A stretch of DNA of 35,047 nt, from positions 1 through 35,047 of IMG/VR virus record IMGVR_UViG_3300027833_000127; one strand, given 5' to 3'. The translations under genes were made by a program, and so were the position numbers. This DNA comes from a virus. This document shows positions 8,265-34,695 of the stretch, in pieces (positions within the stretch are counted from its first letter, which is position 1; every line of letters begins with the position of its first letter). The notes under the pieces are model-generated. The model was given only the letters and a program-made list of their open reading frames with translations. It did not search any database and had not been told where the DNA came from.

Positions 8265-8299
8265 TAAAAAAGCGAAGACTGAATTAACAATCTTCGCTT
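8265..8299 (-). terminator. Intrinsic terminator after gp19
   Basis: On the minus strand AAGCGAAGA (8299-8291) pairs perfectly with TCTTCGCTT (8278-8270) around a 12-base loop and is followed by TTTTATAT. It lies between gp19 and the next late promoter. Confidence 0.85.
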
Positions 8300-9006: not shown

Positions 9007-9034
9007 AATGAGTGGAGATTGTTCTCCACTCATT
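9007..9034 (-). terminator. Perfect 12-bp stem-loop after gp18, probable terminator
   Basis: AATGAGTGGAGA and TCTCCACTCATT pair perfectly around a 4-base loop. On the minus strand the stem is followed only by TTAAGC, so the U-tract is weak. It begins 11 bases after the gp18 stop. It may terminate partially or protect the 3' end of the sheath mRNA. Confidence 0.65.
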
Positions 9035-12472: not shown

Positions 12473-12808
12473 ATGAGACCTTTATGCACTTGCGGAGAGC
12501 GTCCTGCGGCAATAAATTACCGCAAGGATGGTAAAACGTATTATAGAAAGAAATGCGAACGTTGTTTACGTAACGGAACAGGTCACGGAATACCGCTATG
12601 GAAACAGCGTGGTTATGAAAAGAAAAGTGTTTGTGAAAAATGCGGATTTAAATCAAATCATGCTGAGCAGTTTAATGTGTTCCATATAGATGGAGATCTA
12701 CAAAACTGCCGGCCCAATAATCTTAAAACTATATGTGCTAACTGCCAACGTATAACTCAAAAAGAAGGTATACGCTGGAAGCAAGGTGATTTACGTCCTG
12801 ATTTTTAA
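12473..12808 (+). CDS. Small HNH-like zinc-finger protein, 111 aa
   Basis: A Cys-rich protein with paired ligands C5/C7, C28/C31, C54/C57 and C88/C91. The segment FHIDGDLQNCRPNNLKTICA around H71 and N82/N83 fits the core of HNH nucleases (H-x-D-G ... N ... P-x-N-L ... C-x-x-C). The residue after the last Cys, usually His in the CH motif, is Gln (Q92). The enzyme may therefore be weakened, or the domain may only bind DNA. It could be a free-standing homing-type nuclease or a conserved phage DNA-binding protein. It is encoded opposite to its neighbours, and its TAA overlaps the stop of the P-loop kinase gene in a shared TTAA, so the two genes converge with overlapping 3' ends. Confidence 0.75.
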   Translation: MRPLCTCGERPAAINYRKDGKTYYRKKCERCLRNGTGHGIPLWKQRGYEKKSVCEKCGFKSNHAEQFNVFHIDGDLQNCRPNNLKTICANCQRITQKEGIRWKQGDLRPDF

Positions 12809-13326
12809 CACTGAGCTGTGTCGTATGGATTAATGTAATTAATAAGTTGACCTACATTAAATGCTAGATCCCCAAGGGTTCCATTATTATCAATAATATA
12901 ATCAGCCATCCAAGGTTCTAAACTCATTGAATCGTTACCTTCAGGAGGTAAGTGATCTGATCTATCTACCCAAATTACTTTGTCAAATACACCTGTATTC
13001 TTCATAGCATAATATTCTCGTTTGTTGCGTAGACCACAATAGATGTCATATTCAGCAAACATTTCTCTGCCTAGAGTCGCTGCATCAGGTACATTATAAT
13101 CGCAGATAGCATTATACCATTCTGCTCTGTGATTATGCCTGTCAGCATAACACTCTTCCTCATTAGCATATCCATACTTAACCTTTAATTGATTGTAAAT
13201 AAATTGTTTACTACAAAATTTTGAACTGCTTTCGAACGTGTATCTATACATATCTCGAAGCATTTCACACACAGTATCTTTGCCATGTCGGCCGTGGCCT
13301 ATTACTAATAATTTTAACTTGTCCAA
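12805..13326 (-). CDS. P-loop kinase-like protein, possibly dNMP kinase (T4 gp1-type), 173 aa, TTG start
   Basis: The N-terminus carries a strand then a Walker A loop GHGRHGKDT (residues 10-18). Its G-x4-GKDT form is typical of deoxynucleoside monophosphate kinases such as T4 gp1. A Walker-B-like strand VFDKVIWVDRSD lies at about 113-124, and a C-terminal NNGTLGDLAFNVGQL resembles the dNMP-kinase-like tail (..N.G....L). The likely role is nucleotide phosphorylation for phage DNA synthesis. The start codon is TTG, chosen because AGGAG lies seven bases upstream and no ATG is near. Unlike its structural neighbours it has a perfect TTGACA-17-TATAAT promoter, and the Shine-Dalgarno lies in a hairpin arm that the promoter bypasses. 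It is thus likely an early gene embedded in a late region. Confidence 0.75.
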   Translation of the reverse strand: MDKLKLLVIGHGRHGKDTVCEMLRDMYRYTFESSSKFCSKQFIYNQLKVKYGYANEEECYADRHNHRAEWYNAICDYNVPDAATLGREMFAEYDIYCGLRNKREYYAMKNTGVFDKVIWVDRSDHLPPEGNDSMSLEPWMADYIIDNNGTLGDLAFNVGQLINYINPYDTAQC

Positions 13327-13332
13327 AATAGT

Positions 13333-13370
13333 CTCCTAACTTTTATATATTATAAACTATAAGTTAAGAG
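13333..13370 (-). promoter_or_regulatory. RBS-sequestering hairpin with the -10 box in its loop
   Basis: On the minus strand CUCUUAACUU (13370-13361) pairs with AAGUUAGGAG (13342-13333), ten pairs with one G-U. The 3' arm contains the whole AGGAG of the P-loop kinase gene. The 18-base loop contains TATAAT. Transcripts started from that promoter (predicted near 13342) lack the 5' arm and have a free ribosome-binding site. Confidence 0.65.
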
Positions 13371-13377
13371 TTGTCAA
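13349..13377 (-). promoter_or_regulatory. Consensus sigma70-type promoter of the P-loop kinase gene
   Basis: TTGACA (13377-13372) and TATAAT (13354-13349) are both exact consensus with an ideal 17-base spacer. This indicates transcription by host RNA polymerase early in infection. Confidence 0.85.
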
Positions 13378-13706: not shown

Positions 13707-13748
13707 TCATTGAAATCATTGGATTATTTTCTTCAATGATTTCAATGA
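13707..13748. repeat. 15-bp perfect inverted repeat (stem-loop) after gp13
   Basis: CATTGAAATCATTG and CAATGATTTCAATG pair perfectly, extended by one outer T-A pair, around a 12-base loop. It begins two bases after the gp13 stop. Neither strand has a U-tract after it, so it is not a standard intrinsic terminator. An mRNA-stabilising or processing hairpin is possible. Confidence 0.75.
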
Positions 13749-13749
13749 G

Positions 13750-14505
13750 TTAGCCGATTGTAAAGCCGTATCCTGTGCCGCCTGGAACAGCCATTGAAAC
13801 TTCAACTTCTAGCTTTTCCATTTCAGCCTGTGCTTCAGCTTTGAGTGTATCGCCGTTAAGTGTTGATCCGCCTTGTGGGCCTGCAATCGTAGCAAACTTC
13901 GAACGTGCTTCGCCTAGCATATATTTACAACTAGCAAGTGTATAGTCTTTAATCCATTGACTTGCAAGGTAGTCACTTAATATTTCACTATCAGGACGGT
14001 AATTATAGCAATAAAGCAATAGTTCTTCTTCTGCCCTAGGACGCTGTAAAAGAGTAAGTTTTTTGCTCGTATTGTTCCATTTGAACTCGATAAAGCTACC
14101 AAACATTCTACCTACTAGCTCTTGGTGTTGTGCAAACATATCATATGTTGCTAATCCGCCAAGCTTTGATCCTGATAACAAATATGTATTTGTGTACGCT
14201 GCATTAAACGGTTCAAACACACTACCACTCGAACCACTGCCTGCACGTGAGCCGATACTGCTACGATACATTTTACGAACTTCCATTATTTCATTTGGTA
14301 ATACATAATCGTTTTGATCTACAACAGTTGTTAAAAACATATAGCTTTCTTCAACAGCGTGATCACTACGCATTCTATAACGTGTTAATGCTTTTTTCAA
14401 ACCAGTTTGATAATGTATAGGATCAAGTTCAACATCAACCATGCCTCCACCGAGGAATGTGTTAACATAATCGTATACTTCTTGTTTTTGTGTCGCTAGT
14501 GTCAT
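13750..14505 (-). CDS. 13: Neck protein (T4 gp13-like), 251 aa
   Basis: Part of the neck that closes the filled head and joins it to the tail. The sequence agrees with what I recall of marine T4-like gp13: VYDYVNTFLGGGMVDVELDP near residues 10-29, VEESYMFLTTVVDQNDYVLP near 51-70, and a C-terminal WIKDYTLASCKYMLGEARSKF region followed by GxxLN. T4 gp13 has 309 residues. Context supports the call: gp14 starts on the other strand from a back-to-back late promoter, with gp15 behind it. In T4, 13, 14 and 15 are co-directional, so here the block is split by an inversion at the gp13/gp14 junction. A GGAG precedes the ATG and the late promoter is 17 bases upstream. Confidence 0.8.
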   Translation of the reverse strand: MTLATQKQEVYDYVNTFLGGGMVDVELDPIHYQTGLKKALTRYRMRSDHAVEESYMFLTTVVDQNDYVLPNEIMEVRKMYRSSIGSRAGSGSSGSVFEPFNAAYTNTYLLSGSKLGGLATYDMFAQHQELVGRMFGSFIEFKWNNTSKKLTLLQRPRAEEELLLYCYNYRPDSEILSDYLASQWIKDYTLASCKYMLGEARSKFATIAGPQGGSTLNGDTLKAEAQAEMEKLEVEVSMAVPGGTGYGFTIG

Positions 14506-17156: not shown

Positions 17157-17597
17157 ATGAACAATATGATTACTTGCAGCGGTGCCCTGTTTTACACGCT
17201 AGATACAAATAGATTTTTATTTCTCCACCGTGCTCAAGGCAAGCGTAATAATTTGTGGGGTCTTGTCGGTGGCACTAATGAAGGCACCGAAACACCTTGG
17301 GAAGGATTACAACGAGAAATTGAGGAAGAAATTGGCTTTATTCCTGAAATTAAAAAGACACTTCCTTTAGAAAGTTTTATTTCACCTGATAGTAGATTTT
17401 ACTTCCATACATACCTGTGTGTAGTTTCTAGTGAATTTATTCCTCAACTTAATATAGAGCATGATGGATATGCATGGTGTAGTTTTACTAAATGGCCAAA
17501 GCCTCTGCATCACGGATTACGCAATACACTTCAAAGTAAAGTTAATCTAACTAAGTTAGATACTGTTTTTCAAACAATTAATTTACTTGACAAATAA
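17157..17597 (+). CDS. Nudix hydrolase, 146 aa
   Basis: A complete Nudix box, G-x5-E-x7-REUxEExGU, runs from G39 to F61 (GGTNEGTETPWEGLQREIEE and onward), with all acidic metal ligands (E54, E57, E58) present. Nudix enzymes cleave nucleoside diphosphates linked to another moiety. Candidates here are damaged dNTPs, nucleotide sugars, ADP-heptose-like donors or NAD. Residues 62-146 form the usual beta/alpha remainder. A start further upstream (17124) would lie inside gp15; I take the ATG at 17157, 12 bases after GGAGG. The GGAGG lies within the gp15 3' end, so it may be expressed with late gp15 mRNA. The hldE promoter's -35 box lies within its final codons. Neighbouring ADP-heptose genes suggest sugar-nucleotide turnover, but specificity is not readable. 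Confidence 0.9.
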   Translation: MNNMITCSGALFYTLDTNRFLFLHRAQGKRNNLWGLVGGTNEGTETPWEGLQREIEEEIGFIPEIKKTLPLESFISPDSRFYFHTYLCVVSSEFIPQLNIEHDGYAWCSFTKWPKPLHHGLRNTLQSKVNLTKLDTVFQTINLLDK

Positions 17598-17615
17598 CCT
17601 AAAAGATAGTATAAT
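17587..17615 (+). promoter_or_regulatory. Consensus sigma70-type promoter of the heptose cassette
   Basis: TTGACA (17587-17592), 17-base spacer, TATAAT (17610-17615), all exact. Only six bases follow before the hldE ATG, so transcription is expected to begin at or next to the A of AUG. No Shine-Dalgarno fits in that gap. Confidence 0.85.
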
Positions 17616-17621
17616 ATAAAG

Positions 17622-18761
17622 ATGAAAGTATTAGTTTTCGGCGATGTAATAATCGACAAATATATCTATGGCACTTCAGACCGTTTAAGTCCCGAAGCAC
17701 CTGTGCCTGTAGTTAAATACCAACGTGAAGTTGAAACATTAGGCGGTGCCGGGCTTGTTTACGAAAATTTAAAAAGCTTAGGTGTTGATGTAACACTACT
17801 TCAAACTGAACAACCTAGTAGTATTAAAACTCGAGTGATTTGTGACGGACATTATGTCACACGCATTGACGATGATAAACATGCAAACAGTGCCGCAGTA
17901 TTAGCTAATGTATTACGCAGTGATTTTTCTCAATGGGATTATGTAATACTAAGTGATTACAACAAAGGCGTACTTGACGAATCTCTTAAAATTATCGAAC
18001 ACATTAATAAATTTAATTGTAAGATTATTGTAGATCCTAAAGAACATGCAAATCAGTATAAGGGCGCATGGTTAATAAAACCTAACAACAGCGAATTTAC
18101 TAAGTTTGGATTTAACGATTGGCAAGGTAATATTATTACAACCAACGCAGGCGGCAATGTAAATGCTACTATCGACAACATTGAATATATTATTCCTGTA
18201 GATCAAGTTGAGGTCAGCGATGTTACTGGTGCGGGCGATTGTTTTTTAGCAGCATTTGTATATGCTCTTACAAAAGAATACACTTATGAAAAATGTTTAC
18301 AACTAGCAGTAAAAGGTTCTACTGAAGCTGTTACGCATGTAGGCACATACACGCTTGCTGTAAGCGATTTAGAAGATTGTATAGTATTTACTAACGGAGT
18401 GTTTGATATACTACACAAGGGTCATTTTGAGCTCTTAGCAGAAGCAAAAACACTTGGAGAGAAACTAATTGTAGGTATTAATAGCGATGCAAGTGTCAAA
18501 CGTCTTAAAGGCGAAAGACGGCCTATCAACAATCAAATAAAACGTATTAGTCAATTAGAAATACTGCCGTGGGTAGACGAAGTAATTGTATTTGACGAAG
18601 ATACTCCATACGAATTAATTAAAAAATTAAAGCCGCATGTAATTGTAAACGGCGGTGATTATACAATAGAACAAGTTGTAGGACATGACTTAACTGATGT
18701 ACATTTAGTACAAACTGTAGAAGGTTATTCAACAACAAGCATTATAGAGGCAAGCAAATGA
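17622..18761 (+). CDS. hldE: Bifunctional heptose-7-phosphate kinase / heptose-1-phosphate adenylyltransferase (HldE-like), compact, 379 aa
   Basis: HldE phosphorylates D-glycero-beta-D-manno-heptose 7-phosphate at C1 and, after removal of the 7-phosphate, adenylates the product to ADP-heptose. Domain 1 (residues about 1-245) is a PfkB/ribokinase-type kinase: GDVIIDKYIYG near 7-17, GGAG at 41-44, and the catalytic anion-hole motif DVTGAGDCF with GAGD at 203-206. Domain 2 (about 252-379) is a nucleotidyltransferase with TNGVFDILHKGH (HxGH at 265-268), then VGINSDASVKRLKGERRPIN and VEGYSTTSIIE. E. coli HldE is 477 aa; the kinase half here lacks about 65-70 residues, yet key motifs remain. The ATG lies six bases after TATAAT, predicting a leaderless mRNA. 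The stop overlaps the hldD start (ATGA). Confidence 0.93.
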   Translation: MKVLVFGDVIIDKYIYGTSDRLSPEAPVPVVKYQREVETLGGAGLVYENLKSLGVDVTLLQTEQPSSIKTRVICDGHYVTRIDDDKHANSAAVLANVLRSDFSQWDYVILSDYNKGVLDESLKIIEHINKFNCKIIVDPKEHANQYKGAWLIKPNNSEFTKFGFNDWQGNIITTNAGGNVNATIDNIEYIIPVDQVEVSDVTGAGDCFLAAFVYALTKEYTYEKCLQLAVKGSTEAVTHVGTYTLAVSDLEDCIVFTNGVFDILHKGHFELLAEAKTLGEKLIVGINSDASVKRLKGERRPINNQIKRISQLEILPWVDEVIVFDEDTPYELIKKLKPHVIVNGGDYTIEQVVGHDLTDVHLVQTVEGYSTTSIIEASK

Positions 18762-28406: not shown

Positions 28407-28413
28407 TATTTAG
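28407..28413 (-). promoter_or_regulatory. Possible variant late promoter (CTAAATA)
   Basis: CTAAATA overlaps the last codons of the carbamoyltransferase gene, 19 bases before the ATG of the 138-aa gene, with AAGGGG between. It marks the switch from the accessory operon back to structural genes. Confidence 0.4.
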
Positions 28414-30242
28414 CAGTTCTTGACTGTAATTAACTTTCCGTGTTCTGGTAAGTATAGATATTCAATTTTACTATCTGATAAGGTGCGTAATGCATCATCG
28501 AGTGTTTCGACGAGAGGTTCTCCGCCTAGATTAAAACTTGTGTTAAAGATAATCGGTACGCCTGTACGTTCTTTAAATGCTTTAATTATTCTATAGTATA
28601 AAGGATTCTCTTCTTCAGTAACAGTTTGGATACGGCATGTTCCGTCGACATGAATAATAGCAGGAATCTTTTCTTCAATACCTGGCTGACAGTTTACAGC
28701 ATACATCATATGAGGTGTATCATCCATGCCACGTAAATCAAACCATTCATGTACATCTTCAGCTAAAATTGATCCTGCAAATGGTCTAAAATATTCTCTA
28801 TGTTTAATTTCATTTACATAATCTTTTCCGTCTTTAAACGTTGGGTCAAACATTAAACTTCTATTACCTAATGCACGTGGTCCAGCTTCTGAACGTCCTT
28901 GAAAACAAGATACAATATTTTTACTTGTCATTAGATCAATTACATCATCATCTGTAGCATCTTTAATTTCTGCATTATATTTTTTAGTTACGCTATTAAT
29001 TTCGTCAGCGGTGTAGTTATATTTTTGACCTAAATAAATTTCGCGTCCATTTAATTTATCAGAAGTTTCAGTTAAGTTATAAAATCCAAAAAGTGCTACA
29101 CCAATTGCAGTTCCGCTATCATTTGAAATAGGTTCAACGTATAATTCTATTCCTTCTTGATTTAGTCGATTTAAAAAATAGTAATTAGCAACACAATTAA
29201 GTGCATATCCTCCAGATAGTACTACTTTTTTCTTCCCAGACATTTTTGAAGCTTTAAGTATAAGTTTTAAAACTTGTTCTTGTGTTTCGGTTTGAACTGC
29301 ATATGCAAGATCTCTTCGATTTTGTTCTAGTGTAATATCATCAAAGGTACCTAACTTGGTATTTAATTCATCAAATAGCTCTGCATTTACAACAGCTCCT
29401 CGAGGATAATACGGAACAATAACGTTTGGATCTGATAATTCATAATCTCCAATTTTGTTAAACAATTTTGGTATTTTATTATTAGGCTTACCGTACGGAA
29501 ATAGCCCCATAGTTTTTCCTGCTTCGATTTCTTGGAACCCACAGTACTTAGTAACTGCTTCATATGTTTTAGTAATACCTGCATTTCTAGTATATAATCC
29601 GTGAAATGTATTACCTATCTCGCCATATATCTCTTCAGCTTCTTGTTCTTTATTACTATGTGTTAATATTGGTTCTTTTGATGCAGAATGTTTATATAAA
29701 TGATTTAAAGTTGCTGGATATTTGCAATCAATAATTGATTCAATTTCCCAAGAAAACGTGCTTAATTCATCATCTGGAGCAAATTTTGGATCAGTTACTT
29801 GTGTATATGGTAATTCAGATCCACATCCATCAACTACTAATGCTACAGCTTCATCAAACCCAGATCGATAAAATGCACACGCTGCATGTACTTTGTGATG
29901 TTGATGACTAAGATCAAATACTTGTGGATGATTATGAGGATCAGCATGTTGATCAATTAACCCTAATTTTCTAGCTAATCCGACATACATATTATCACCA
30001 CTAAAATCAATTGTTCCAGAGGTGTACATTGGCTGAGTATGTACTATAAACATATAATCTACTTTATCTGTATACTCTTTTACTTTTACCATTGATGCAA
30101 ATGGACTACCGTCATATTTTTTTCTACTAAGACGCTCCTCTTCTATTGCATATACAATCTTACCATTTTTTAATAAACATACACCTGAATTATGTCCTCG
30201 AGAAATGCCCATTATCCACAAATCTTTTTTTATTTCATTCAT
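28410..30242 (-). CDS. NodU/CmcH-type carbamoyltransferase, 610 aa
   Basis: Transfers a carbamoyl group from carbamoyl phosphate, through a carbamoyl-AMP intermediate, to a hydroxyl of a sugar or natural product. The N-terminal Kae1/TsaD-like domain shows GISRGHNSGVCLLKNGKIVY (about 12-31), EEERLSRKKYDG, the metal-ligand region HQHHKVHAACAFY near 115-127, VVDGCGSE near 137-144 and VVLSGGYALNC near 342-352. The C-terminal YrdC-like domain shows GRSEAGPRALGNRSL near 450, REYFRPFAGSIL, and VPIIFNTSFNLGGEPLV near 570. Length agrees with the family (about 570-620). I start at the ATG two bases after the GT9 stop; GTG at 30254 would overlap that gene. Last gene of the halogenase operon. The acceptor is unknown. 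Confidence 0.95.
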   Translation of the reverse strand: MNEIKKDLWIMGISRGHNSGVCLLKNGKIVYAIEEERLSRKKYDGSPFASMVKVKEYTDKVDYMFIVHTQPMYTSGTIDFSGDNMYVGLARKLGLIDQHADPHNHPQVFDLSHQHHKVHAACAFYRSGFDEAVALVVDGCGSELPYTQVTDPKFAPDDELSTFSWEIESIIDCKYPATLNHLYKHSASKEPILTHSNKEQEAEEIYGEIGNTFHGLYTRNAGITKTYEAVTKYCGFQEIEAGKTMGLFPYGKPNNKIPKLFNKIGDYELSDPNVIVPYYPRGAVVNAELFDELNTKLGTFDDITLEQNRRDLAYAVQTETQEQVLKLILKASKMSGKKKVVLSGGYALNCVANYYFLNRLNQEGIELYVEPISNDSGTAIGVALFGFYNLTETSDKLNGREIYLGQKYNYTADEINSVTKKYNAEIKDATDDDVIDLMTSKNIVSCFQGRSEAGPRALGNRSLMFDPTFKDGKDYVNEIKHREYFRPFAGSILAEDVHEWFDLRGMDDTPHMMYAVNCQPGIEEKIPAIIHVDGTCRIQTVTEEENPLYYRIIKAFKERTGVPIIFNTSFNLGGEPLVETLDDALRTLSDSKIEYLYLPEHGKLITVKNC

Positions 30243-30243
30243 A

Positions 30244-31200
30244 TTATAATCCACTTAAAATTTTATCTGCTATTTGTTTAATCTGATCGTCGGTCAATCT
30301 CATTGCCGATTCATTTTTTCTATCCGCACATTCGTCTACAGTAATGCGTATAGGACTGTATTCTTTATTATCTTTATTAAAATCAAAAATGTTAAATTGC
30401 TGACTTGTAGGATAAGATACATTTTCAGCAAATGTAGATCCAAGAACTAAGTACGTGCTTTTGTTAAACGAATGTGCAACATGTTGACCTATTGAGTCGC
30501 AACCTATAAATGCATCTGAAGCGTTTATCATTCCAAACCATTTTCTTAGATTTGTATTTTCAATAAAAAATGTTTCTTGTTTACATCCATATGCACTAAA
30601 ATCTACATTATATTCATTCATTAATAATACAGAGCATTTATGTTCAATTTGTTTTATTAATTTTGCAGCTAATTCAATAGTAAACGATCTTCCTGTTGAA
30701 TCAATTGGGCCCGATTGTGTTTCTATAGCATTTAATGTAATACCTTTACCAAACGGTTGAAAAATTACTAAAGGTTTCTTATGCTTGTCTCTCATATCCT
30801 TAGCCATATTAGCTGCGGTATACAATTCATCATTACTTAAATGTATAGAAGCACGTGGCAAATTAGTATCTAACTTTCCGTTAATTTCAATATCAAATGC
30901 TTGTGCAATATTACATTTTTGATTATAATACTCCCACACATAGTATGGTTCTGGTGCTACTATATTTCTATCTTTTAATGTATCTCTAAATAAGTGAGTT
31001 AAATTTGCAGGATATGATCTAGCATGCAGTGTCGGGTGACCCGAAAATGCTTCATATGCCCACTCTGAAAATATCACAAAGTCATCATCTGGATTATTTT
31101 CAAGATATTTTTCTAATGCCGGAATAGCACATACAGCTCTTCCAACGCCGCCGTTAATATAAAATGCTGTGCTACGATCTGTATTAATTGTTTTTTTCAT
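30244..31200 (-). CDS. GT9/heptosyltransferase-like glycosyltransferase (GT-B), 318 aa
   Basis: Family 9 glycosyltransferases move heptose from ADP-heptose to lipopolysaccharide core or related acceptors. The fold is visible as two Rossmann-like halves: FYINGGVGRAVCAIPALEKY (about 13-32; GVG and IPAL correspond to the GT9 N-terminal G.GD....P.) and KPLVIFQPFGKG near 142-153. The C-terminal donor-site part is VLLMNEYN, LRKWFGMINASDAFIGCDSI, GQHVAHSFNKSTYLVLGS; the GCDSIGQHVAH stretch matches the heptosyltransferase D-[ST]-G-..H-A-A pattern, with Ile-Gly replacing the usual Gly. Length fits (about 320-350). It overlaps the oxygenase stop (ATGA). Its ADP-heptose donor could come from the hldE-hldD-gmhB cassette. 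A diverged GT-B of other specificity is possible. Confidence 0.75.
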   Translation of the reverse strand: MKKTINTDRSTAFYINGGVGRAVCAIPALEKYLENNPDDDFVIFSEWAYEAFSGHPTLHARSYPANLTHLFRDTLKDRNIVAPEPYYVWEYYNQKCNIAQAFDIEINGKLDTNLPRASIHLSNDELYTAANMAKDMRDKHKKPLVIFQPFGKGITLNAIETQSGPIDSTGRSFTIELAAKLIKQIEHKCSVLLMNEYNVDFSAYGCKQETFFIENTNLRKWFGMINASDAFIGCDSIGQHVAHSFNKSTYLVLGSTFAENVSYPTSQQFNIFDFNKDNKEYSPIRITVDECADRKNESAMRLTDDQIKQIADKILSGL

Positions 31201-31838
31201 AAATTTAACTCGTTTAATGTTGTTTCATCGCCAAGTTTTCCCTTTACAAAAATATTAAAGGATAAACTTATTCTAGTTTTATCTGACATATTTGGATTTA
31301 CTTCATGGAATGTTTTCGAAGGAAAGAAAATAATATCATTATTCGTTACAGGAACAGTCCACTGATTAGAATTAGTTAAATTATAATTAGTGACATCAAT
31401 TTGTAATGTGGAGTTAGTTGTAACAGTATCATTATTATTAGAAATAAAAGTTATATTATCTTCTGGAAGTGTGTCTATATAATACACTCCGCTTATCAAC
31501 GAATTACTGTGATTATGTCTATGATGAGTAGTACCGGGTTCATTGAAGTTCAACCAAGATTGTGTAATATAAAACTCATATGCTGGATCTACAAATAATA
31601 CATCATTAACATATTGGCTAAGACCAAACATAACCCTGTCACGTATTATTTTATAAGATTCTAAATTTAATACTTTAGTTTCAACTGATGCAAAATTGCC
31701 GCCTATATTTTCACGGACGTCTTTGCGTTCATTTGCTGTATCATGTATACCATTTACTGTACTCGAATATTCATTACACATAAAAACTGGAGTACTAAAA
31801 AGTAATAATGTATTGTCTAATGGGTTAGTTTGATTCAT
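31197..31838 (-). CDS. 2OG-Fe(II) oxygenase, 213 aa
   Basis: Non-haem iron, 2-oxoglutarate-dependent dioxygenase of the double-stranded beta-helix fold, common in marine T4-like phages. The iron facial triad is plausible as H108/H110 in HHRHNHSNSLISGVYYID (residues 105-122) with distal H178 in FFPSKTFHEVNPN. R189 in KTRISLSFN would bind the 2-oxoglutarate carboxylate. The SGVYYI motif and N-terminal LLLFSTPVF fit the family of putative 2OG-Fe(II) oxygenases of about 200 aa. It probably hydroxylates a protein or small molecule; the target is unknown. AAGGAA lies before the ATG. The gene is separated from the preceding oxygenase by nine bases and overlaps the GT9 gene by four. Confidence 0.9.
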   Translation of the reverse strand: MNQTNPLDNTLLLFSTPVFMCNEYSSTVNGIHDTANERKDVRENIGGNFASVETKVLNLESYKIIRDRVMFGLSQYVNDVLFVDPAYEFYITQSWLNFNEPGTTHHRHNHSNSLISGVYYIDTLPEDNITFISNNNDTVTTNSTLQIDVTNYNLTNSNQWTVPVTNNDIIFFPSKTFHEVNPNMSDKTRISLSFNIFVKGKLGDETTLNELNL

Positions 31839-31847
31839 TTTTTTTCC

Positions 31848-32513
31848 TTAGTTAGTATTTGTATCTATTCGAATATTTCCAGAAACACTTATCCTATAAT
31901 CATCCGAAGTATAAAACGGATGAACGCAATGATTTAATCCAGCAGGAAACATTAAAATAGATCCCTCCCATGACTTATCGATTGGAACTGCTGTAGTTTG
32001 TGTTCTGCCTAATATATCACTATAAATAAAAGCAAGCTTTGAAGTAAAAGAATTTGACCTATCAGACTCTGTTTCCGACGAACTAGGAGGAAAGTAACTT
32101 TCTTCGTTTTCTAAATCGTAAGGTATTTTAATCCAAATTACAAAGCTTAACACACCCGAATGAACATGTATAGGATTAAACTCATATTTTTTTTGTTTGT
32201 TAACCCATAAATTACTTAGAGTTAAGCCATAGTTATTATATTTAGAAACTTCTTCGAATGAATCAATATATCCCGGATTAGCCTCTTTCCAAGTATCGGC
32301 CATTGCTAATAAAAAATCAGACATATTATCCTTAATATGATTTAATGAATACTCTTCTTGCATATGTCCTAATAAATTGCTATTATATTTTTCGTCTGAG
32401 TTAGACACATTATCAATAGTAGCTTTTAAATTTTCAAAAAGATCAAACGGAAGTTTAGATTCTAATATGCCAATATTAGGAAATGCCTTTGGCGATGCCG
32501 GTGTGTCAATCAT
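31848..32513 (-). CDS. Second 2OG-Fe(II) oxygenase-like protein, 221 aa
   Basis: Shows the same beta-helix signature as its neighbour but is clearly diverged. The first ligand motif is FNPIHVHSGVLSFVIWIKIP with H116 and H118, the distal His is H195 or H198 in FPAGLNHCVHPF, and R207 lies in DYRISVSGNI. The LSFVIWIKIPYD strand and GSILMFPAGLNHCVHP match phage 2OG-Fe(II) proteins. A Ser/Glu-rich loop near 142-155 interrupts the core. The N-terminal 60 residues are helical. Its start overlaps the halogenase stop by eight bases (ATGATTGA), indicating tight coupling. Having two different oxygenases next to a halogenase suggests successive oxidations of one scaffold, or independent protein hydroxylations. 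Confidence 0.82.
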   Translation of the reverse strand: MIDTPASPKAFPNIGILESKLPFDLFENLKATIDNVSNSDEKYNSNLLGHMQEEYSLNHIKDNMSDFLLAMADTWKEANPGYIDSFEEVSKYNNYGLTLSNLWVNKQKKYEFNPIHVHSGVLSFVIWIKIPYDLENEESYFPPSSSETESDRSNSFTSKLAFIYSDILGRTQTTAVPIDKSWEGSILMFPAGLNHCVHPFYTSDDYRISVSGNIRIDTNTN

Positions 32514-34095
32514 TTGTGTTAGTATCCTTGCTATTATATATATTCTGATCTAACCAATCATAGGCACTAAGCTGACTTTTGGCAGCAGTCTTCCACTGAT
32601 TCATTTTATTGTGTCTATTATACAAAAATCTTTCACAAAAATCACGCTGATTTACTTGCCTACCTAATTCATCTTTTACAATATCTACTTCAGTATATAT
32701 ATTATAATTCATGCCATTAGCTATACACACAATACCTGCTTTTCCAAAATGTCTAAGGGTATCTGTTTTTTTTACATATAGGTCATTAAATCCACTGTAA
32801 CTATTGCCTATATCTGGATCGTATACTCTTTCTCTATTTTTAATCCAATAATTAGAATCAGTTCTTATAGATAATGCATAGTGTAATGCAACAAAATCTG
32901 CAAAATTTTGATAAAATCTTCTTATACGTGCATTATACACATCTCTATCAAATTGATTGATTACTGGACGATCTACATGTCGACAGAATTCTAATAGAAA
33001 TTCATGCACACTTAATAATCCATTGCTTTCTAAAGGTTCAATGAATGCTGCTGCTAACCCAATTGCTAATACATTTTTAACCCATATGCGTTTGTGTATG
33101 CCTGTTCTAAAATTAATATGTCTAAAATTTAGTTCGTCAGTGACTCTATTAGGATTATGGACTGTCATTTTATCAGAATTAAGATGATCCTTAAATTCTT
33201 GTAATGCTTCTTCGTCTGATATAAATTCGTCTGAATAAACATACCCTGTGCCTATTCTTGACCATAAAGGAATATTCCAAACCCATCCATTAGTTAATGC
33301 AGTGCAATTTGTATATACTTCTAATTCTTTCTCTTTGTCAGTATACGGTACTTGTACTGCCCATGCTTTGTTGTTTGGTAAAATATCTCTATAAGAAACA
33401 AACGGTTCTTCTAATGCTTTGCCTAATAATAAACTTTCAAATCCGGTACAGTCTACATAAAGATCTGCTTGTAATTCTGTGCCGTCTTCTAATACTATTT
33501 TATCTATACCGTTTTCGTTTGTAGGAGTTTCGTTAACTGTTCCAACTATGTGGTTGACGCCTCGTGGTATACAATAATGATCTTTGAGATATTTTCCAAA
33601 TAGCAATGAATCAAAATGAAAAGCTGTGTCGTAATCAAATCTAAAATCATCAAAACTTCCGTCTTCGTTAGTTGATAATTTATTTTCATTTACTAGTGCC
33701 ATCGTAGGCCAAAAGTTTTCAGCGAAATCACTAGAATGTGTTTCGGGATAGTATATCTTTTTTAATTGCCAATCATTATAATTAATATCATCAATTTCAG
33801 ATGGATTACCAAACGGATAATGAAATCCACCATAATCTTTATCGTAAAAATCAGTAAATTTAATACTAAGCTTATATGTGCCGTTTGTGTGTTTAATAAA
33901 ATCTTTGTCGTCTATTCCAAGATATGCTGTCCAGTCTCGTATAAACGCTAGTGTACTTTCACCAACACCAATTTTAGGTACATCGGCACTTTCTACTAAT
34001 GTAATTTTTTTATTTGGAAATTTTTTAATTAATGTTGCAGCTGCCATCCAACCGGCTGAGCCGCCGCCAACTATTAATATACTATTAAATGCCAT
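32506..34095 (-). CDS. Flavin-dependent tryptophan halogenase-like enzyme, 529 aa
   Basis: Uses FADH2, O2 and halide to make hypohalous acid and halogenate an aromatic substrate. All landmarks are present: the FAD loop IVGGGSAGW (8-16), GVGEST (43-48), the catalytic lysine K75 in NGTYKLSIKF (equivalent to PrnA K79), the halogenase signature WxWxIP as WVWNIP (271-276), and IEPLESNG (352-359) carrying the conserved Glu region. Length matches PrnA (538). Substrate could be free Trp, a peptide or another indole; residues lining the pocket cannot be judged here. No flavin reductase is encoded in the window. AGGAGG lies seven bases before ATG, inside a hairpin arm. First gene of a five-gene operon with its own sigma70-type promoter. 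Confidence 0.95.
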   Translation of the reverse strand: MAFNSILIVGGGSAGWMAAATLIKKFPNKKITLVESADVPKIGVGESTLAFIRDWTAYLGIDDKDFIKHTNGTYKLSIKFTDFYDKDYGGFHYPFGNPSEIDDINYNDWQLKKIYYPETHSSDFAENFWPTMALVNENKLSTNEDGSFDDFRFDYDTAFHFDSLLFGKYLKDHYCIPRGVNHIVGTVNETPTNENGIDKIVLEDGTELQADLYVDCTGFESLLLGKALEEPFVSYRDILPNNKAWAVQVPYTDKEKELEVYTNCTALTNGWVWNIPLWSRIGTGYVYSDEFISDEEALQEFKDHLNSDKMTVHNPNRVTDELNFRHINFRTGIHKRIWVKNVLAIGLAAAFIEPLESNGLLSVHEFLLEFCRHVDRPVINQFDRDVYNARIRRFYQNFADFVALHYALSIRTDSNYWIKNRERVYDPDIGNSYSGFNDLYVKKTDTLRHFGKAGIVCIANGMNYNIYTEVDIVKDELGRQVNQRDFCERFLYNRHNKMNQWKTAAKSQLSAYDWLDQNIYNSKDTNTND

Positions 34096-34097
34096 AG

Positions 34098-34144
34098 CAA
34101 TGCCTCCTATAATGTATTTAATTATAACATCATAAGAGGCATTG
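34098..34144 (-). promoter_or_regulatory. 18-bp RBS-sequestering hairpin with the -10 box in its loop
   Basis: On the minus strand the 5' arm CAAUGCCUCUUAUGAUGU (34144-34127) pairs with the 3' arm ACAUUAUAGGAGGCAUUG (34115-34098), 18 pairs with two G-U. The 3' arm contains the whole AGGAGG and ends two bases before the AUG of the halogenase. The 11-base loop starts with TATAAT. Transcripts initiated in the loop (near 34114) lack the 5' arm. Confidence 0.85.
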
Positions 34145-34148
34145 TCAA
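34121..34148 (-). promoter_or_regulatory. Sigma70-type promoter of the halogenase operon
   Basis: TTGACA (34148-34143) and TATAAT (34126-34121) are exact consensus with a 16-base spacer. A TTAAATA (34121-34115), one mismatch from the late-promoter core, overlaps the end of the -10, so late use is also conceivable. Confidence 0.85.
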
Positions 34149-34161
34149 TGTGGTTTATATA

Positions 34162-34695
34162 TTAATCGTCAGGGTCTACTGGATCTGGTTCGCCTGGATC
34201 TGGAATTGTAACGCCTGGCGGTAGTGGCCAAGTAATCTCGTCTGCAGAAGCTATTGTTTCCCAGTTGATAGTGTCTGGAAGATCTCTTAGAGTTTGTCTA
34301 TAAGTTGCCCATGCTGCTTTGTCTTCATCACTCAATGCTGAATCAGGTAGTTGTGTCCAATCAGACGCTGGTAATAAATTTTGACGAGTGCGTTCCATAA
34401 ATCTAAATCGCTTTTCGATTACATCAATAGTTTGTTCGTTCCACTCTTGGGTGAAAACTCCGTCTTCATCTTTTACAATATTGCCTGGCTCTACATCAAC
34501 GTCGGTATCTCCGTTAACAACATTTCTTATTGAATCCCATACTGGAGCAAATCCTTTAGCACGGACTTCTTCTTCGGTAAAGCTCCAATCTACACCACCC
34601 ATTATATAAAATATATTGTCTGGGGTGATGAAGTGTTCGTCTACCATTTCGCCGTCTGCATCAATTGGTAAGTAGTTTACGTTTTGTAAATTCAT
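34162..34695 (-). CDS. Phage tail assembly chaperone-like protein, 177 aa
   Basis: The C-terminal half has the pattern of the Phage_tail_APC family: RQNLLPASDWTQLPD (about 103-117), then DEDKAAWATYRQTLRDLPD near 122-140, and a Pro-rich acidic end. Proteins of this class sit downstream of tail fibres and help fibre folding or attachment. The N-terminal part (residues 1-95, including NVNYLPIDADGEMVDEHFIT) may be a separate domain. I start at MNLQNVNYL because TGAGGA lies upstream; a longer frame adds only five residues. It follows the Gly/Cys-rich fibre gene after 20 bases, consistent with a fibre-chaperone pair. No own promoter is obvious, so it is probably read from the fibre promoter outside the window. 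Confidence 0.75.
   Translation of the reverse strand: MNLQNVNYLPIDADGEMVDEHFITPDNIFYIMGGVDWSFTEEEVRAKGFAPVWDSIRNVVNGDTDVDVEPGNIVKDEDGVFTQEWNEQTIDVIEKRFRFMERTRQNLLPASDWTQLPDSALSDEDKAAWATYRQTLRDLPDTINWETIASADEITWPLPPGVTIPDPGEPDPVDPDD

Follow-up and report, generated by a model that had tools for sequence, protein, structure and literature searches.

How is a metabolic operon translated when it lies behind the structural genes of a phage and its promoter is nested in a hairpin that covers its ribosome-binding site? The window, by which is meant the whole stretch of 35,047 nucleotides analysed from IMG/VR virus record IMGVR_UViG_3300027833_000127, raises this question at its tryptophan halogenase gene. 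The virus is a tailed marine phage with a T4-type terminase; among cultured phages, the closest terminases belong to Pseudomonas phages of PA5oct type (55% identity). The genes on either side of the hairpin are as follows.

34162-34695, minus strand: tail assembly chaperone gene, upstream and co-directional, the expected source of read-through RNA
32506-34095, minus strand: tryptophan halogenase (PF04820, E 9e-105), the first gene of the operon, with its ATG at 34095
28410-32513, minus strand: the rest of the cassette, co-directional, encoding two 2OG-Fe(II) oxygenases, a phrog_8954 protein and a carbamoyltransferase

The region from 28410 to 34095, comprising the halogenase and the genes after it (2OG-Fe(II) oxygenases, phrog_8954 and carbamoyltransferase), is a biosynthetic-looking cassette amid structural genes. 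In the 120-kb relative behind locus L005, the operon lies within a long co-directional block which includes structural genes.

A promoter within a hairpin

The element between the chaperone and halogenase genes consists of the following parts.

34143-34148, minus strand: -35 hexamer TTGACA, invariant in all eight aligned sequences
34127-34144, minus strand: 5' arm of the stem, CAATGCCTCTTATGATGT, made up of the 16-nt spacer and the last two bases of the -35 and holding the anti-Shine-Dalgarno sequence
34121-34126, minus strand: -10 hexamer TATAAT, the first six bases of the loop (TATACT in three relatives)
34116-34126, minus strand: hairpin loop of 11 nt, TATAATTAAAT, starting with the -10
34113-34115, minus strand: predicted transcript start, 6 to 8 nt past the -10, inferred from promoter spacing and unmapped
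34098-34115, minus strand: 3' arm of the stem, ACATTATAGGAGGCATTG, containing the Shine-Dalgarno sequence AGGAGG (34103-34108)

Read down the minus strand from 34148, the order is TTGACA, 16 nt, TATAAT, TAAAT, ACATTATAGGAGGCATTG, CT and ATG. The promoter matches the consensus at 12 of 12 positions (TTGACA-16-TATAAT) and has a TG preceding the -10. The stem has 18 consecutive pairs, 16 of them Watson-Crick and two G-U, and the whole of AGGAGG is paired. Both parts of the geometry claimed in a sequence-only reading of this DNA, an 18-bp stem with two G-U pairs over the entire AGGAGG (34098-34144, minus strand) and an 11-base loop opening with the TATAAT of a TTGACA-16-TATAAT promoter, were found exactly so. 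The RNA fold of this region (86 nt) has an energy of -27.8 kcal/mol (z = -6.4), equalled by none of 200 shuffles. When the whole 35-kb sequence was resampled 60 times under a Markov-1 model, the longest stem (loop of 3 to 20, no more than two G-U pairs) was 14 bp, compared with the 18 bp observed.

Conservation and pairing in relatives

Eight related loci (L001-L008) carry halogenases 73 to 85% identical to that of this phage. L002 and L003 share one leader, giving eight distinct halogenase elements when the present phage is included. All eight relatives keep TTGACA, a spacer of 16 or 17 nt, a -10 of TATAAT or TATACT, and a stem covering the Shine-Dalgarno sequence; the arm sequences differ and the register shifts, with pairing retained. 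Pairing of each spacer with its own leader averages -24.9 kcal/mol, versus -16.5 kcal/mol with the leaders of relatives, and only 10 of 20000 arm-swap permutations were as good. This figure overstates independence, since the halogenase sequences form about three groups. Two-sided base changes occur at seven pair positions, flanking an unchanged GGAG, although the pair types at each position were read from individual folds and lean towards pairing. Compensatory change in the stems of relatives, which had been put forward as a check, was confirmed at the halogenase promoter and at two further gene families (described below). The element is absent from distant halogenases (L009 onward) and so belongs to this phage group rather than to the gene family.

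A chance complement between a strong Shine-Dalgarno sequence and a promoter spacer, without function, is strongly disfavoured and can be given next to no weight: short CTCC/GGAG matches do arise by chance, as scan controls showed, but the stem is longer than that in any resampled sequence, and its conservation with co-evolution and its recurrence argue further against accident. It is unlikely that the hairpin serves to end transcription from upstream, as an intrinsic terminator whose loop carries a promoter. Such a terminator would serve the same end, insulation, and a U-run does follow the stem in four of the eight halogenase elements and in some other families (for example, L490 and L553). 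However, there is no U-run in the element of this phage, for which an intrinsic terminator was therefore rejected, nor in L006-L008; a terminator scan, limited to loops of 8 nt or less, found none here or at L005; and what every element retains is a paired Shine-Dalgarno sequence. Hairpins masking a Shine-Dalgarno sequence often are conditional RNA switches, which counts in favour of reading this one as a switch on the operon's own transcript, be it a thermometer or a leader under the control of a ligand or protein. That is nevertheless highly unlikely, as transcription from this promoter begins downstream of the 5' arm, leaving the native RNA unable to form the stem, and with 18 bp and near -27 kcal/mol the stem is too stable to act as a thermometer.

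The inverted repeat might also act as DNA, a palindrome to which a repressor or activator of the promoter binds, with RNA pairing as a by-product. Its position across the -10 and throughout the spacer is a common one for operators, and in T4 the promoter of I-TevI is overlapped by a protein operator in addition to the hairpin (PMC2988022). The mismatches within the stems are informative here. A DNA palindrome is strand-symmetric, so G-T and A-C mismatches would be expected equally on the coding strand, but with a score treating all mismatches alike there were 42 G-U and two A-C in the three families (nine and zero in the halogenase family alone). Over distinct contexts in 30 gene clusters, the corresponding numbers were 28 and three (P = 5e-6). 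The G-rich 3' arms explain part of this bias; the excess of G-U over A-C nonetheless favours selection on the coding-strand RNA. In addition, the sequence of the stem varies freely while its pairing is kept, and the Shine-Dalgarno sequence invariably falls within the 3' arm. A DNA operator, disfavoured by the asymmetry of mismatches, is distinctly unlikely.

The proposed gate and comparable systems

Translation of the halogenase operon is probably gated by the origin of its transcript. The anatomy, the conservation with co-evolution of the arms, the bias of mismatches towards one strand, the presence of a co-directional gene upstream and the recurrence at other genes are all observed, whereas the start site, the timing and the failure of long RNA to be translated are inferred. 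Polymerase entering from the co-directional structural genes would copy the whole hairpin, and on this read-through RNA the 5' arm, provided by the promoter spacer, would pair with the Shine-Dalgarno sequence and close the halogenase start. RNA from the internal host-type promoter would begin in the loop or at the 3' arm and, being without the 5' arm, would leave the Shine-Dalgarno sequence open. Translation of the operon would then require its own sigma70-type promoter to fire and would not follow from late transcription passing through. That its own transcript lacks the 5' arm is deduced from the sequence only, the start being unmapped.

Computed accessibility agrees with the proposal, made in the sequence-only reading, of a site closed on read-through RNA and open on RNA from the internal promoter, although as a prediction only. 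All six Shine-Dalgarno bases are open with a probability of 9e-14 in the read-through RNA, versus about 0.4 when the RNA begins at the predicted start; these are model numbers. For several relatives, partial folding is predicted in the native transcript as well, with the bases open at a probability of no more than 0.01, making the contrast between closed and open a graded one. The stop codon of the tail chaperone gene at 34162 lies 17 nt ahead of the stem, from which it is inferred that a terminating ribosome would hardly open the hairpin. Two directions had been suggested for the gate, a reversal of the T4 logic or insulation of the operon from late read-through. The second fits best, the promoter being host-type; with structural genes upstream, the gate most likely silences an early-type operon on late read-through, its direction in time being inferred.

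In T4, gene e (lysozyme), soc, gene 49 and the gene for the intron endonuclease I-TevI have a promoter in a hairpin masking the ribosome-binding site (PMC3014915, PMC2988022), and the genes known to use this mechanism are late ones carried on early or middle transcripts (PMC2988022, PMC3014915). The mechanism has been demonstrated by experiment for gene e; in the same computation its Shine-Dalgarno sequence was open at 3e-10 in the long RNA and 0.0035 in the native one. The likeness to T4 that had been suggested thus extends to gene e, which goes from closed to much more open by computation, but is weak for soc. As in the T4 hairpins, the Shine-Dalgarno sequence is in the 3' arm and the native RNA would be without the 5' arm. 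In T4 the promoter is in the loop or 5' arm and read-through RNA is silent; here, silence is predicted from accessibility. Unlike T4, where a gp55-type late TATAAATA promoter has no -35, TTGACA-16/17-TATAMT is kept in all eight aligned sequences and the pairing arm is built into the spacer between -35 and -10. T4 protects late genes from early and middle read-through, whereas here protection would run the opposite way, and the gene order is reversed, with a metabolic operon behind structural genes. In mobE of phage Aeh1 and segB of T4, the ribosome-binding site is also masked on long transcripts (PMC2988022), but these are selfish homing-endonuclease genes with a late promoter in early or middle operons, unlike the halogenase element.

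A T4-like late promoter in the loop was considered and rejected: although TATAATTA differs from TATAAATA by a single base, TTGACA is invariant at the -35. The late motif TATAAATA has only a few sites, not above permuted motifs, and late drive of the upstream genes was not shown. At all five sites with a gene start following, TATAAATA is exactly 5 nt ahead of the ATG; one is at the terminase gene (3724, minus strand) and four are in the 120-kb relative behind L005. These sites may represent leaderless late messages, a reading for which the constant 5-nt distance is striking but the counts do not exceed those of permuted motifs.

Fold-back inhibition in the transposons IS10 and IS50 works on a similar principle, as transposase transcripts from outside promoters are closed and the transposase's own transcript is open. 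The promoter inside the hairpin is of the host sigma70 type, as it is here, and the arms belong to the terminal inverted repeat of the transposon. The halogenase element differs in that the downstream gene encodes a halogenase and the element is single-copy in the record, such elements being found at fixed phage genes; no transposon end or transposase was seen beside it. The principle is known (T4, IS10/IS50), and it is the sigma70, apparently widespread phage form that appears to be new. No earlier report of this form as a recurrent phage design was found in the literature, of which open-access coverage was partial.

Recurrence in viral and bacterial sequences

The only other minus-strand promoter with a perfect consensus in the 35-kb sequence, at 13377, also lies in a hairpin.

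13326-13377, minus strand: second promoter-hairpin, with TTGACA at 13377-13372, TATAAT at 13354-13349 in the loop and the start codon TTG at 13326
13370-13358 and 13345-13333, minus strand: its arms, CTCTTAACTT ... AAGTTAGGAG, with AGGAG in the 3' arm
12805-13326, minus strand: the deoxynucleoside monophosphate kinase-like gene under this element

Relatives of this element co-vary (27 distinct elements, with none of 20000 arm-swap permutations as good) and have two-sided changes at 14 pair positions. Their stems range from strong to weak, and some relatives have a leaderless start instead. A third family, of HslV-type proteases (Proteasome, PF00227), surfaced from a promoter-only scan in which no hairpin was requested. 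Nearly all of its 28 distinct elements have stems of the CCCCTCC/GGGAGGGG type, again with no arm-swap permutation in 20000 as good, and two-sided changes occur at 13 pair positions. The HslV-type gene immediately follows a small open frame on the same strand, the product of which looks like a membrane protein. Across the three families, each of the 64 members has an open frame on the same strand that ends between -26 and +27 nt from the -35.

In a first set of 93 gene clusters with promoter and Shine-Dalgarno sequence, there were 3.3 high-score clusters, versus 0.15 when spacers were swapped between clusters. Complete scans of viral contigs for TTGACA-N4-CTCCT-...-TATAAT-...-AGGAG gave 60 stretches with the complementary 5-mer, versus 15 with it permuted to CCTTC. 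Pairing extended at least five bases past the 5-mer in 31 of 47 distinct viral elements, compared with none of 12 permuted ones and five of 38 from bacteria (drawn from 257 Gb of bacterial genomes). A same-strand gene ended beside the promoter in 28 of 30 hairpin clusters, versus 143 of 195 without a hairpin (P = 0.02). The 30-cluster set was partly chosen for complementarity, which biases swap counts there; the 93-cluster swap and the complete scans are cleaner. Family counts include related sequences. Other genes under such elements include many of unknown function, besides members of the metallophosphatase, dCMP deaminase and PGDYG families. T5 and T5-like records had at most one weak candidate (T5 53903), and no cultured relatives with strong elements were found, part of the queries having covered neighbouring DNA only.

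We lean, with some reserve, towards the view that many lineages of tailed phages have repeatedly evolved the same insulated cassette, in which a host-type promoter with an anti-Shine-Dalgarno sequence in its spacer restricts translation of a gene lying within another operon to the gene's own transcript; this phage group has leaderless starts where a Shine-Dalgarno sequence is absent, and these may insulate likewise. If true, this would be a compact, protein-free way to place a gene in any operon under the control of its own promoter alone, would suggest how metabolic 'moron' genes persist within the late operons of phages, and would mean that RNA abundance of such genes late in infection will not match protein. 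An anti-Shine-Dalgarno sequence in the promoter spacer would be a signature by which such genes can be found, and the element could be a simple insulated part for gene circuits.

The start codon was exactly 6 nt past the -10 in nine of nine host-type promoters without a Shine-Dalgarno sequence, and their transcripts would thus begin at the A of ATG. This leaderless geometry is found at a host-type promoter at 17587-17622 (plus strand), which serves an HldE-like kinase/cytidylyltransferase gene, and in the related records L391, L393, L398, L402, L404 and L405.

In L490, L553 and L409, the hairpin is followed by a T-run and then the start codon; such an element may combine the roles of terminator, promoter and Shine-Dalgarno mask. 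A promoter-hairpin in a 204-kb viral contig (L519, 1601-1646) precedes a gene that by eye resembles one for a sigma factor, and would gate a regulator. Rare strong bacterial cases (L691, L694 and L696, from bacterial genome contigs) may be prophage or mobile genes, and one of them, in a Nitrospirae genome, precedes a gene for what by eye resembles a ribbon-helix-helix protein.

Other inverted repeats are present in the window. One of 15 to 17 bp, near-perfect and without a U-run (TCATTGAAATCATTG...CAATGATTTCAATGA, 13707-13748), comes directly after the stop codon of the gene at 13750-14505. Two of 12 bp, at 9007-9034 (AATGAGTGGAGA-loop-TCTCCACTCATT) and 8270-8299 (AAGCGAAGATTG-loop-CAGTCTTCGCTT), are both near gene ends in the structural region.
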